NCBI RefSeq assembly: GCF_000967915.1
Contig: NC_022549.1
Span: 732,366-796,365, forward strand
Direction of reading: 5' to 3'
DNA length: 64,000 bases
DNA from: Paracholeplasma brassicae
GTDB lineage: Bacteria; Bacillota_I; Bacilli_A; Acholeplasmatales; UBA5453
The notes under the pieces were generated by a model that saw only the letters and a program-made list of their open reading frames with translations, searched no databases and was not told the origin of the DNA. Shown here piece by piece: positions 41,353-47,296 of this stretch (position 1 is the stretch's first letter; every line of letters begins with the position of its first letter). A program made the translations under genes and the position numbers.

Positions 41353-43077
41353 ATGAGTTTTTTAGAAAAAAAATGGTGGAAAGAAGCCGTAGGCTATCAA
41401 ATATATATCAAAAGTTTTAATGATTCAAATGGTGATGGTATTGGTGATATCAACGGTATTATCGAAAAGCTTGACTACTTAAAAGATCTAGGTGTTGACT
41501 TGCTATGGATATGTCCATTTTATAAGTCACCAATGGATGATAATGGTTATGACGTATCGGATTACTATCAAATTGCTCCAGAGTATGGGACACTTGAGGA
41601 TGCCAAAAAAATGATTGATGAAGCGCACAAACGTGGCATCAAAATCATTGCCGATTTTGTCATGAACCAAACATCTGATGAACACCCGTGGTTTATTGAA
41701 TCAAGAAAATCGGTTGATAACCCTTACCGTGATTATTACATTTGGCAAAAGGGTAAAATCGTCGATGGAAAAGAAGTCGAACCAACCAACTGGGCATCGT
41801 TTTTTGGCGGGTCCTGCTGGCAAAAAGATGAATTAACCAATGAGTATTACATGAAGATATTCTCCAAAAAAATGCCAGACTTAAACTGGGCAAATCCAAA
41901 CGTTAGAAAAGGGATGCAAGACATCGCAACGTTTTGGCTTGATCTTGGTGTGGACGGTTTTCGAGTGGATGCCGTGGCTCACATTGCACGCTCAACCACC
42001 TTTGAAGATTCCACGATGGAGAGTAATGAAGTTTACAAGCCGGATTGGCGTAAGTTTTCTAACTTACCTAAACTGCATGACTATTTACATGAATTCAATC
42101 AAAACGTCTTAAAACATTACGATGTGATGACGGTCGGTGAAGTTGGTGGTGGTGCATTACCGGAAGAAGCCATCGAATATGCTGGACTTGATCGTGATGA
42201 GTTAAACATGGTATTTAATTTTGACCACAACTGGTGTAACAACGTTTGGGACTTAAAAGACCCTAACGAACCGATTGTAGTTAACCTTAAACACATGAAA
42301 GAGATGTTCTTGAAATGGCAAAAGAATCTTTATGGTAAAGCATGGAACCCACTTTACTGGCTAAATCATGATCAACCTCGTGTGATGAGTCAATATGGTA
42401 ATGAGAAAAAACCGTTTTTATCGGGTTCGATGCTTGCAACTGCACTCTATTTTATGTGGGGCACCCCATTTATTTACCAAGGCGAAGAAATTGGGATGAC
42501 TAATTACCCATTTAAAACTATTGACGATTTTAATGACGTTAGTGTAAAGACAACCTACGCGCTTGAAAAGTCAAGAGGCAATACAGACTTAGATCGGTTC
42601 ATTGGCTTTACCGCCAAACGCAGTCGAGATAACGCTAGAACACCGATGCAGTGGAATAATAAACCTTACGCAGGGTTTTCAACAAAAGAACCGTGGTTTC
42701 ACGTCAACCCAAACTTCACTAAAGTGAACGTAGAAGATCAAATCAACGACCCAAATTCATTGTTGAATTATTATAAAAAAGTCATTGCTTTAAAGAAAGA
42801 CGACGCTTATAAGAGCACACTTGTTTATGGTTCATATGAAATGATTAATCAAGAACACCCTCAAGTTTATGCGTATCTTAGAAAAGGCGACCAAACCATT
42901 TTGGTGGTCACCAACTTCTTTGATTGTGAGACATCCATCTCGCTAAACGGACTTAAGGTAAAACAAGTATTATTGTCAAATTACGAATCAAACGAGATTT
43001 CGTTAGATAACCTGATTTTAAGACCGTACGAATCTTATGTGTTTGAAGTCAGTGAAGGAGGTAGTAAACATGAATAA
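41353..43077 (+). CDS. Alpha-glucosidase/oligo-glucosidase (GH13_31)
   Basis: Cytoplasmic exo-acting GH13 enzyme of 574 aa releasing glucose from imported oligosaccharides. It opens KKWWKEAVGYQIYIKSFNDSNGDGIGD, the subfamily start. Catalytic residues are Asp206 in GFRVDAVAH, Glu263 in VGEVGG and Asp340 in NHDQPR. Region I reads MNQTSDEHPW. The choice between alpha-1,4 and alpha-1,6 linkage or trehalose-6-phosphate cannot be settled by eye. It follows the MalG-like gene by two bases, so its product belongs to the uptake operon. Confidence 0.92.
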   Translation: MSFLEKKWWKEAVGYQIYIKSFNDSNGDGIGDINGIIEKLDYLKDLGVDLLWICPFYKSPMDDNGYDVSDYYQIAPEYGTLEDAKKMIDEAHKRGIKIIADFVMNQTSDEHPWFIESRKSVDNPYRDYYIWQKGKIVDGKEVEPTNWASFFGGSCWQKDELTNEYYMKIFSKKMPDLNWANPNVRKGMQDIATFWLDLGVDGFRVDAVAHIARSTTFEDSTMESNEVYKPDWRKFSNLPKLHDYLHEFNQNVLKHYDVMTVGEVGGGALPEEAIEYAGLDRDELNMVFNFDHNWCNNVWDLKDPNEPIVVNLKHMKEMFLKWQKNLYGKAWNPLYWLNHDQPRVMSQYGNEKKPFLSGSMLATALYFMWGTPFIYQGEEIGMTNYPFKTIDDFNDVSVKTTYALEKSRGNTDLDRFIGFTAKRSRDNARTPMQWNNKPYAGFSTKEPWFHVNPNFTKVNVEDQINDPNSLLNYYKKVIALKKDDAYKSTLVYGSYEMINQEHPQVYAYLRKGDQTILVVTNFFDCETSISLNGLKVKQVLLSNYESNEISLDNLILRPYESYVFEVSEGGSKHE

Positions 43078-43438
43078 AATCAAAGCAGATGTGATGCGTT
43101 CAATCGAATCATACATAATCTATTTCGGCGCATTGTTACACTTTCTTTTCTTCTTTATTTTTGAATTTAAGAACATCAATGTCCCTAATCCTGACATGGA
43201 AGTTGCCGGATTAACAATTGTATTTCGTCTGATTGTATTAATCATGGTACTTGTCATTGCTGGGAAATTAAGAGATATCGCGGATGATAATAAGGGTCAA
43301 GCAATTACGTTATTCTTAATTGGTGCGTTTGCCTTTATTCCCTCTGCCGAACGTATATCAAACTTAGTGCCTGTTTTTATATGGGTAGGTACTGCGGTTT
43401 ACATCATCATCAAATATAAAGTATTAGTAAAAAAATAA
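43070..43438 (+). CDS. Small four-helix membrane protein at the end of the maltodextrin operon
   Basis: Hydrophobic protein of 122 aa with four predicted membrane helices (near 14-32, 46-65, 78-94, 101-117). GAAGGAGG before ATG 43070 gives a strong start, overlapping the glucosidase gene by eight bases. No family is recognised. Its position suggests a helper for the maltodextrin transporter, but that is only context. Confidence 0.7.
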   Translation: MNKIKADVMRSIESYIIYFGALLHFLFFFIFEFKNINVPNPDMEVAGLTIVFRLIVLIMVLVIAGKLRDIADDNKGQAITLFLIGAFAFIPSAERISNLVPVFIWVGTAVYIIIKYKVLVKK

Positions 43439-43602: not shown

Positions 43603-46600
43603 ATGAGTTTTACAGGAGCTAATATGTTAATGTATTTTAATTTTCTAGCGATAGCGACAATCGGATTTGCGATACTCGGTGGCTTTTTAAAGGGTTTTTT
43701 CAAAACAACCTATTATTTTGTAGTCACTTTGATTGTCTTCATCGGTGGCTTTATTGCAATGCCTTTTATCACATCTTATTTAATGGAAGCTGACTTATCA
43801 TTTTTTAACCAATACATACCGGCCAGTCTTGAAATCGAACTCACAACGATAAAAGAAACCGTCGTCAGGTATTTAATCGAAATGAATCCGTCACTAGAGG
43901 CTGTCTTAGTCGAAGAGAGTGACGCTTTGAGACTTGTCTTTGGAGTGACACAAATGGCTTTAAATCTGGTCTACATACTCGTCTTGTATGTGTTTAATTT
44001 AACCCTATTTAAAGTGATTGGTTTTGTTATTTACTTATTTATTAAGCCGAGTAAAAAAGACAAATATGGCAATAAACGCTCAAAGAAACGCCTATTAGGC
44101 GCACTAATGGGTGGGTTGCGAGGCGTGTTTGCGGTAATATTATTAGCTATCCCATTTTCTGGGATTGTCTCAATCGGCAACAGTGCATCTTATCTAATCG
44201 AGCAACAAGACGCATACCCGGTAATGATGACACCGGAAGGCTACGGATTTGTTAGCTACTCAGAGGAAATTGAATCCGCTGAGTTAATTGAGTTTTTAGA
44301 GGGCTACCGTGATACTTACGTTGGACAGATCGCGTCTTTTATAAAAGTAGATGACGTCGCACTCGATGAGTTCGTCTTTGATGCATTCTTTAGTGTTAAA
44401 GCCACATCAAATGGCAAAGAAGTATCGGTTAAGTTTAGAAAAGAACTTGACAACATAGCCAAACTGTATGAAAAACTAATGACCCTCAATGATGGCAGTA
44501 GCCAATTTGACGAGGCGTTTTTAAAGAAACTATCGGAGGATGATGTTAATGAAATTCTTAACTACATAGAGTCGCTTGATCTGATTAAGGTGATTATCCC
44601 TGTGTCAGTGGAGTACTTTATTCGTAGTGGTGAATTTGATGACATGATCGAAGGTTATGAAGATTTAATTACCGTAGAAAAACTAAAACAAATCGATCTG
44701 GTCAATGACATTAAAGGGCTAAGTCCTATTTTTACGGATCTGATTAGTCTTTTAGACGAAGACACATCGATTGATGATCTTAATTTCTTGACTTTAGACG
44801 GGATTACCGTTAAACGTGTATTTACTAACATAGGCGAGCTAAGTGTGGTTAATCAGCTCGTACCTGTCCTTTTTAATTGGTTTGTAAATTCAGATACAAT
44901 GACGGATTTACTAATGAAATACGACTTAACGAAAGAAGATATCGTTGTCCCAACCGCTGAGACACTTCAGAATGACTTTGTCAATTTAGGTGATTTATAC
45001 ATCGCATTTCAAGCGTTAGGTTTTAGTGATGTATCTCAGTTTGAACAACTTAGTGACCCATTAGTGATTGATTCAATCGCTGATGAAGCGTTAAGTCAGT
45101 TTATTCAAACACTCTTTAGTTTTGAGCTACTAAGCGATAATCAAACGGTATTAACAGAGATTATGTATGATTATCTAATCGAAGTATTACCAGTTGAGTA
45201 TCAACAAGTATTTTTAAAGACAGATATCAGTTCCAATTTTAACGCAACAGAAATGACAAATTTAGTCTTACTATCTAAGCTGCTTCTATCTGCAGGTATC
45301 GTTTCTGAAGAGTTTAGCTATGAAGATCTATTAACAGAAGAAAACATAAATAAACTTGCCTCACGTATGTCTGCTTCAAATTTACTTTCTTCTAAAATGG
45401 ATGATCTTTTAGGCATACTAACCAATCAGTTTAGCCTACCTTTTGTTCTTGAAATCCCAGCTGAAACGACGTTTAGTGGTGAGACTGGAAAAGAAGAAAT
45501 TAAAGGCTTGTTAAATTCAATTCGCATCATACTTGATCAAGGTATTCTAGAAGAAACGTTTGATTTTTCTCAATTAACGAGCGAGACAATTGATGAACTT
45601 AGCATCCATCTAACCAGTTCAAGTGTGATTAATCACAATCTAAAATCGATCATCGAACAAGTGATTTCAAACACCGGTTTTGATTTTAGTGTGTCTTTAG
45701 ATGACGTCGTCTTTGACCAAACCGAAATATCAAGTTTACTCAAATCAGTAAAAATCATTATCGAAAACGGCTCGAGCCTAGATGCGATTACCTCATTAAA
45801 TGCATCTGACATTAATACCCTAAGCCAATCGCTTGTCATCACAAATACCTTGAAGGATGAATTAATTACCTTGACGAGTCAGAATGGTGCACTATATGAA
45901 GTACTTTATATCCCTGAAAATGTGACATGGCATTCGACATTAACGAATGTTGGTGAGGTCGAGTCTTTCTTACTTGCCATTCAAATGCTCAATATCACTG
46001 GCGGTCTTGATCAAGTTAGCTTAGACATTGATCAAATACTAGATAAGGATATTGATCAGCTCTTTAGATCAAGGATAATAGAAGAAACCAGTGTTAGACT
46101 ACTTAAAGACTTAGTTGAAACGGGTGCATTGAGTCTTTACTTAGAACCACTAGATACTCAAAATCAACAGTATCAATGGTATAAAACGAGTCCAAACGGT
46201 AGTAGTGATGCAATCTCACTCATCGAGTCAATTCAACAATTAAAATCGATTGGTATTGATTATGACGATTTTAATTACCAAGCGGTGCTCAACGCATTAC
46301 AAGTGCCACAAAATGTCATCGTACTTGAAAATGCCCTACTAGATTCAACCATCTTAGAAAGTTCACTTGAAAAGATGTTAAATCGTTTGTTGATTACCGA
46401 GGCAGGCTTTAATGTGGTCATTAATACCAATGATGATGAAAACTACTTTAAAGGCACACCAGAAAACGAAGGAGAGCTCCATCGACTGCTTAATGGACTT
46501 GTCAGCGCAAATGAATTAATGAATTTTGACTATCTTACGCTTTCAAGCGCTAATAAAACGGTGTTTAAATCCAACTTAAATCAAATCAATGAATCCGAAA

Positions 46601-47250
46601 TTCTAAGACAACTATTGGTTGAACTACTTGATAGCAGTCTGCTAGACTCGGTCTCTAACTATAAAGTTAGTCCAAGACCACAATTAACTAAGGCAATGTG
46701 GACAAGTGAAATCGATGCATTAGTCGATCTATTCGTGCTATTTAACGAAGGATTGAATTTAAGTACATTAGATATTACAACACTTGATGACCAATCGGCT
46801 GACAACTTAGGTCAATCAATTAACCTACTTTCAAGTAGCTATTTACTTGATGTCAATCAAATCAAACCGGTGATAAAATCTGGTTTTGAAACGGTGTTTT
46901 CTACCACACTAAGTCCATTAGGTGAGGTTTCTAGTCCGACTGATTCGTACCAAGATAAGGTTCAAAAATGGGCGGACGAGTCGTCTAAACTGGTTTCATT
47001 AATCAAACAATTTGATGAAATCAACCCAATCAGTGAAGGAAGAATTAAAGGTAATTTCGTTGGAGACACACTGTTTGCAGAAACGTTAGGTGGTTTCCTT
47101 GATGAAGCAGAAAACTCAAGTATGTTAAATCCGATTGTAATTGAACTTGCTTATGGCATACTTGATCCAAGTTATCATGCCTACGTGGATACAACCAATC
47201 AAACCTATGAAGAAATCATGGTTCAGATTCACGGCTTAATGTGGTTGTAA
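43603..47250 (+). CDS. Giant membrane-anchored repeat protein with CvpA-like N-terminus
   Basis: Hypothetical protein of 1215 aa. The first 200 residues hold about four membrane helices and resemble CvpA-type proteins (GGFLKGFFKTTYYFVVTLIVFIGGF and LGALMGGLRGVFAVILL). The remaining 1000 residues are acidic, helical, without Cys, and made of about eight degenerate repeats starting near 459, 547, 627, 705, 783, 867, 955 and 1036. Each has the pattern (G/S)E(I/V)xxLLxxIxIL...LD...L...DxxxLxxSLxxSxxLxxxLxxLIE. The single gene has its own leader. It probably forms a long outward-facing rod; its role is unknown. Confidence 0.75.
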   Translation: MSFTGANMLMYFNFLAIATIGFAILGGFLKGFFKTTYYFVVTLIVFIGGFIAMPFITSYLMEADLSFFNQYIPASLEIELTTIKETVVRYLIEMNPSLEAVLVEESDALRLVFGVTQMALNLVYILVLYVFNLTLFKVIGFVIYLFIKPSKKDKYGNKRSKKRLLGALMGGLRGVFAVILLAIPFSGIVSIGNSASYLIEQQDAYPVMMTPEGYGFVSYSEEIESAELIEFLEGYRDTYVGQIASFIKVDDVALDEFVFDAFFSVKATSNGKEVSVKFRKELDNIAKLYEKLMTLNDGSSQFDEAFLKKLSEDDVNEILNYIESLDLIKVIIPVSVEYFIRSGEFDDMIEGYEDLITVEKLKQIDLVNDIKGLSPIFTDLISLLDEDTSIDDLNFLTLDGITVKRVFTNIGELSVVNQLVPVLFNWFVNSDTMTDLLMKYDLTKEDIVVPTAETLQNDFVNLGDLYIAFQALGFSDVSQFEQLSDPLVIDSIADEALSQFIQTLFSFELLSDNQTVLTEIMYDYLIEVLPVEYQQVFLKTDISSNFNATEMTNLVLLSKLLLSAGIVSEEFSYEDLLTEENINKLASRMSASNLLSSKMDDLLGILTNQFSLPFVLEIPAETTFSGETGKEEIKGLLNSIRIILDQGILEETFDFSQLTSETIDELSIHLTSSSVINHNLKSIIEQVISNTGFDFSVSLDDVVFDQTEISSLLKSVKIIIENGSSLDAITSLNASDINTLSQSLVITNTLKDELITLTSQNGALYEVLYIPENVTWHSTLTNVGEVESFLLAIQMLNITGGLDQVSLDIDQILDKDIDQLFRSRIIEETSVRLLKDLVETGALSLYLEPLDTQNQQYQWYKTSPNGSSDAISLIESIQQLKSIGIDYDDFNYQAVLNALQVPQNVIVLENALLDSTILESSLEKMLNRLLITEAGFNVVINTNDDENYFKGTPENEGELHRLLNGLVSANELMNFDYLTLSSANKTVFKSNLNQINESEILRQLLVELLDSSLLDSVSNYKVSPRPQLTKAMWTSEIDALVDLFVLFNEGLNLSTLDITTLDDQSADNLGQSINLLSSSYLLDVNQIKPVIKSGFETVFSTTLSPLGEVSSPTDSYQDKVQKWADESSKLVSLIKQFDEINPISEGRIKGNFVGDTLFAETLGGFLDEAENSSMLNPIVIELAYGILDPSYHAYVDTTNQTYEEIMVQIHGLMWL

Positions 47251-47262
47251 AAAGAATATTCT

Positions 47263-47296
47263 AAAATGTCTGGTCACTGGCTCAGACATTTTTCCA
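47263..47296 (+). terminator. Terminator after the giant repeat protein gene
   Basis: AAAATGTCTG (47263-47272) pairs with CAGACATTTT (47283-47292). Confidence 0.8.

Follow-up and report, generated by a model that had tools for sequence, protein, structure and literature searches.

A CvpA-like membrane domain followed by a tandem helical repeat array in Paracholeplasma brassicae, and its predicted class-wide family of large relatives

The open reading frame at 43603-47250 (+) of the window (the whole 64,000-nucleotide stretch of Paracholeplasma brassicae DNA analysed here) is intact, starts with ATG and encodes a membrane protein of 1215 residues, confirming an earlier note on this DNA. Four hydrophobic segments occupy the first 200 residues, and tandem helical units of about 80 residues follow them (Table 1). 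Judged from sequence comparison, this is not a lone protein; it is a member of a class-wide family that includes wall-less bacteria and some walled relatives. The repeat array, the similarity of its anchor to CvpA, the class-wide spread, the growth of the array in relatives and the helical fold of three units were computed. The architecture has good support. As to function, we infer an adhesin or a scaffold, and regard a membrane-anchored extracellular alpha-solenoid acting in this way as about an even proposition. The source genome is a single contig of 1,877,792 bases. A hydrophobic 133-aa ORF (window 43037-43438) lies between an alpha-amylase-family gene and the 1215-residue giant; it had no Pfam match, and BLAST gave no counterpart in the conserved block of the congeners. 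The terminator-like pattern listed in Table 1 was found four times, against 2.2 expected.

Table 1. Features of the 1215-residue protein and its gene, in window coordinates.
Feature	Residues	Position	Strand	Basis
ORF, CvpA-like membrane domain and ten-unit helical repeat array		43603..47250	+	
TM1	8-26	43624..43680	+	hydropathy
TM2, after conserved CvpA-type motif G27xxxG31xxK34	39-57	43717..43773	+	hydropathy; hhalign to CvpA over TM1-2
TM3 region	112-143	43936..44031	+	hydropathy; AF2 helix 107-147
TM3-TM4 basic loop, +9/-1, predicted cytoplasmic	146-171	44038..44115	+	charge
TM4, chain then outside (predicted)	174-192	44122..44178	+	hydropathy, loop charge
Conserved post-TM4 segment, LDEFVFDAFF region		44359..44388	+	alignment of 18 relatives
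Repeat unit 1	281-356	44443..44670	+	held-out HMM E 4.5e-12
Repeat unit 2	about 373-448	44719..44946	+	held-out HMM E 1.7e-7
Repeat unit 3, weak	about 462-534	44986..45201	+	held-out HMM E 3e-3, in register
Repeat unit 4	550-624	45250..45474	+	held-out HMM E 2.9e-12
Repeat unit 5, best copy	632-704	45496..45714	+	held-out HMM E 1.4e-19
Repeat unit 6	708-776	45724..45930	+	held-out HMM E 2.7e-12
Repeat unit 7	785-859	45955..46179	+	held-out HMM E 2.5e-11
Repeat unit 8	871-948	46213..46446	+	held-out HMM E 1.5e-9
Repeat unit 9, weak	about 958-1029	46474..46689	+	held-out HMM E 1.5e-4, in register
Repeat unit 10, weak	1036-1108	46708..46926	+	held-out HMM E 7e-5, in register
C-terminal tail, without further hydrophobic segment	1109-1215	46927..47247	+	
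Terminator-like stem-loop, 11 pairs, T tail, 13 bases past stop		47263..47292	+	pattern match only

Off-diagonal Smith-Waterman self-alignment of residues 201-1215 is clearly periodic: the top score was 225, at an offset of 82 over 763 columns, with additional self-alignments at offsets 243, 329, 579, 673 and 755, and the maximum over 12 composition shuffles was 72. The periodic helical unit of roughly 80 residues proposed in the earlier note is thus borne out. A repeat profile was built from hand-seeded units and iterated over relatives, and a held-out HMM was retrained excluding every unit of the 1215-residue protein. This held-out HMM recovers ten tandem units in register over residues 281-1108, seven clear (E from 1e-7 to 1e-19) and three weak. 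Units 3, 9 and 10 are weak on their own, since 3 of 50 shuffles gave one match of about 5e-3 and the reversed sequence gave one at 5e-5; we kept them for their in-register positions. The “about eight” repeats read initially came near to this, as seven copies are clear, but ten are counted by register.

The consensus over 152 unit copies is ELEALLKALKILNEAGIDEDDFDLDTLTDEDIEEISDNLSSSKIISHNLPKIINSLLESGELDFTLEVPEDLEW. The motifs E(I/V)xxLL and SxxLxxxL, already picked out by eye, are indeed the two best conserved parts of the unit: over 40 units aligned in 74 columns, E2 is conserved at 88% and S55 at 95%, with L33 at 75% and I45 at 72% (numbering by alignment columns), and about twenty of the 74 columns are at least 80% hydrophobic. 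The conserved positions are either hydrophobic residues that are buried or probable helix caps (E, S, P), and none looks catalytic. An AlphaFold2 model of units 5-7, based on 20 aligned rows, is all helical (pLDDT 86.4, pTM 0.83). In each unit a long helix starting at the conserved E gives way to a short helix in the middle, then to a second one, to another starting close to the conserved S, and finally to an extended linker; the three units are confidently modelled as three-helix solenoid units. The rows were non-overlapping three-unit windows, as overlapping four-unit windows proved unusable because rows slid along the array. A second model, of residues 1-786, agrees with the first (pLDDT mostly 70-92 across residues 400-750), its membrane domain being of low confidence (residues 1-36 and 146-252 below 50).

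The earlier note had recognised no such family, and this stands against Pfam, NCBIfam and PDB, none of which gave a full-length profile match to a characterised family. The whole protein returned only noise from these three collections (S100 matches at E about 0.4); the 40 repeat units gave no Pfam match below E 0.01, the best (E 0.01) being unrelated families; and the unit profile had no match among PDB sequences. Foldseek searches with both models found nothing in PDB at E ≤ 0.001 (best for the three-unit model E 0.17, TM-score about 0.25). A Foldseek search of BFVD also gave nothing. The Pfam families RXLR_WY, Big_8 and MGMT_N appeared on one relative (L055) and were rejected as sums of weak repeats in which no single stretch passes. 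The open-access literature yielded no description of a giant CvpA-like repeat family, and an account may exist outside open access. Against these databases and that literature, the repeat and the giant family are apparently undescribed.

The CvpA-like start proposed in the earlier note also found support. Pfam CvpA/Colicin_V (PF02674) matches 15 of 18 family members (best E 6.9e-6), and aligns to residues 13-197 of the 1215-residue protein under its cut-off (10.5 vs 29.3 bits; 12.4 bits for the N-domain alone). Comparison of the N-domain profile with ten true CvpA proteins of the class by hhalign gave a probability of 94.9% and E 4.4e-8, over TM1-2 only, and a repeat-bearing relative from another family (L121, 1612 aa, eight units) exceeds the Pfam cut-off with 31.4 bits. 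We call the N-domain CvpA-like because its own score lies below the cut-off, but it shares this profile similarity and has a relative above it; a family link to CvpA is likely on these profile comparisons, the 1215-residue protein itself falling formally short of the threshold. In the segment after TM4, D260 is invariant and D255 and F259 nearly so among 18 relatives. CvpA domains were also observed in frames of 569-588 and 784-786 aa at loci such as L099, L100, L103, L106, L113 and L115, which are possibly other CvpA fusions. Three genomes of family f8 (G443, G489, G537) carry a small CvpA-like protein, not itself a giant, in a 346-353 aa frame; its in-frame TGA is expected under a TGA=Trp code.

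Net loop charges, averaged over 18 relatives, are +2.1 (loop 1-2), -4.1 (2-3), +6.8 (3-4) and -16.4 (post-TM4). A positive-inside bias is apparent, the 3-4 loop carrying net +4 or more in 16 of the 18 and loops 1-2 and 2-3 being consistent in all of them. Loop charge thus places the N terminus outside, loops 1-2 and 3-4 inside and the repeats outside, so that the array is predicted to be extracellular. The 1015 residues past the first 200 hold 165 D/E vs 57 K/R, and the ectodomain has a net charge of -107 and no cysteine vs 5.6 expected from other ORFs; hydropathy at a 1.6 cut-off gave no hydrophobic segment past TM4. Alpha-solenoids are common inside cells, and the repeats might form a cytoplasmic scaffold instead; the charge bias in all three loops and the acidic, cysteine-free ectodomain make this very improbable.

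In the proposed mechanism, the CvpA-like four-helix bundle, with its N terminus outside and its basic 3-4 loop inside, would fix the chain in the membrane, and about 1000 residues after it would be exported. The conserved membrane-proximal segment would lead into the ten tandem units, whose three helices and extended linker may stack as an acidic, cysteine-free alpha-solenoid. The surface that this arm turns towards neighbours, substrates or a host would be changeable, unit duplication altering the arm's length and fast sequence change altering its face. The rod or scaffold suggested in the earlier note agrees with the solenoid as modelled and with its predicted position outside the cell; the overall interpretation there is supported in part.

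The evolution of the array bears on this mechanism. No pair of units in this genome exceeds 35% identity. In three relatives, some units are as much as 88-96% identical and recur in larger blocks, of three units in L051 and L056 and of two in L055; these arrays grew by recent duplication. No other gene of the conserved block diverges as fast as this one, at 34-38% identity to congeners vs 42-78% for its syntenic neighbours; fast divergence and duplicated units are common in surface-exposed repeat proteins. Congeners have longer, less degenerate arrays (proteins of 1578-1993 vs 1215 aa), a difference that might befit a decaying or chance ORF without function, but conservation already speaks decisively against that reading, which we hold to be extremely improbable: the frame is intact, the N-domain conserved and syntenic orthologues are found in five examined congeners.

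All six sampled congeners carry a family member, and in the five for which the region was inspected synteny is conserved. Among named relatives are Paracholeplasma vituli 92-19 and several Acholeplasmataceae metagenome genomes. A single-sequence scan of genome contigs found no relatives, and a profile scan succeeded: the N-domain profile finds matches in 105 of 160 genomes from the order and in 164 of 395 from the class, and some of the weakest may be ordinary CvpA. Proteins sharing the N-domain are 941 to 6049 aa long, and the largest open frame has 6056 aa. Each of the 20 additional loci retrieved from across the class carries the repeat unit, with 4-24 detected copies in large frames; two unrelated 623-624-aa proteins adjoining these loci have none. 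Broadly, only the N-domain and the post-TM4 segment can be aligned as one profile across the class. The P. brassicae genome itself encodes a 3683-aa paralogue (L031:2044-13095; C1 about 1312043-1323094, minus strand) with the same N-domain, 19 detected repeat units, no cysteine and a net charge of -351. In family f4 its relatives are as long as 4461 aa; they (e.g., L040, L041, L042, L043) lie near a putative dnaE gene. Two large members occur in tandem at L117, L118, L127 and L129 (f24) and at L037 (f1), typically one of about 2500-3000 aa beside one of 950-1300 aa, and may work as a pair. Giants at G044:C1:982553-983608 (L042) and G071:C1:399185-400240 (L077) have one in-frame stop within the N-domain match, which may be a real interruption or a sequencing error.

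The wall-poor setting invoked in the earlier note is weakened, as it applies to families f1 and f4 of the order and not to the whole family. MraY (TIGR00445) occurs in 167 of 395 class genomes, and in at least 38 genomes of the two lists inspected MraY coexists with a large relative (families f3, f9, f12, f19 and f21); in three of these (L121, L125, L130), the same profile detects relatives with 8-18 repeat units, so the same architecture exists alongside MraY. A missing wall is not the family's defining context, because several relatives have MraY; wall loss as its defining trait, tested by MraY, was not upheld. These genomes count against envelope support as well, in which the protein, in the abundance that a coat requires, would cover the outer face of the membrane or form a skeleton there and so mechanically stabilise cells with little or no wall. 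That role is unlikely in our view, and it has in its favour that relatives are near-universal in the wall-less free-living families of order and class, typically as one long conserved copy per genome, and absent from the putative phytoplasma-like genus g20, living inside hosts. Rather tentatively, the class-wide CvpA-anchored giants (about 950-6000 aa), built from the unrecognised three-helix repeat, could be the principal fibre exposed by wall-less cells of the Bacilli lineage, kept or elaborated upon wall loss. Vesicle proteomics has been reported for Acholeplasma laidlawii (PMC6698929).

Large relatives are mostly found once per genome, at unlinked places, and a housekeeping envelope role therefore also fits, rather than a variable adhesin. 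Another reading is an envelope-homeostasis platform, in which the CvpA-like bundle would be the working part and organise a complex in the membrane, other extracytoplasmic proteins, for processing, secretion or stress responses, being held by the solenoid. Known CvpA-type proteins such as MarP join such a bundle to an extracytoplasmic domain, and the alignability of the N-domain and post-TM4 segment alone across the class is consistent with it. Still, genomic neighbours differ between genera, no conserved gene partner was found and no catalytic domain was matched, and we give this platform a small chance; the neighbours of the 1215-residue gene likewise offered no functional link. Returning to the exposed solenoid, if it is right, free-living mollicutes and their relatives would have a so far unnamed surface protein that ranks among their largest and most rapidly changing. 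How cells that lack a wall interact with their environment could be approached through it; its repeat would be a new helical module for structural work, and the arrays of 4 to 24 detected units would form a natural series in which to follow how solenoids lengthen by duplication.

As in alpha-solenoids of the HEAT, ARM, TPR and PUF types, the tandem helical units are predicted to stack; unlike them, each has three helices and an extended linker per ~80 residues. No HEAT, ARM or TPR profile matched, and consecutive units had no Foldseek match in PDB at E ≤ 0.001. Gram-positive repeat-bearing surface adhesins have a long, repeated, exposed stalk whose array length varies by duplication, a likeness shared by the predicted stalk described here. 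The 1215-residue protein differs in its anchor, an N-terminal bundle of several helices in place of sortase attachment or a lipid, and in having no known adhesin domain; its chain ends ...QIHGLMWL, with neither a Gram-positive sorting signal nor a hydrophobic tail. MarP-type proteins combine a CvpA-like bundle with an extracytoplasmic serine protease; here too such a bundle would anchor an extracytoplasmic C-terminal part, but this part is a repeat array, and Pfam and NCBIfam scans gave no serine protease domain. Finally, the four-helix membrane domain, the G..(K/R)G..K motif and the basic loop preceding TM4 are shared with CvpA (PF02674), whose frames in the class sample are mostly of 157-846 aa, whereas the 1215-residue protein has a 1000-residue repeat array.
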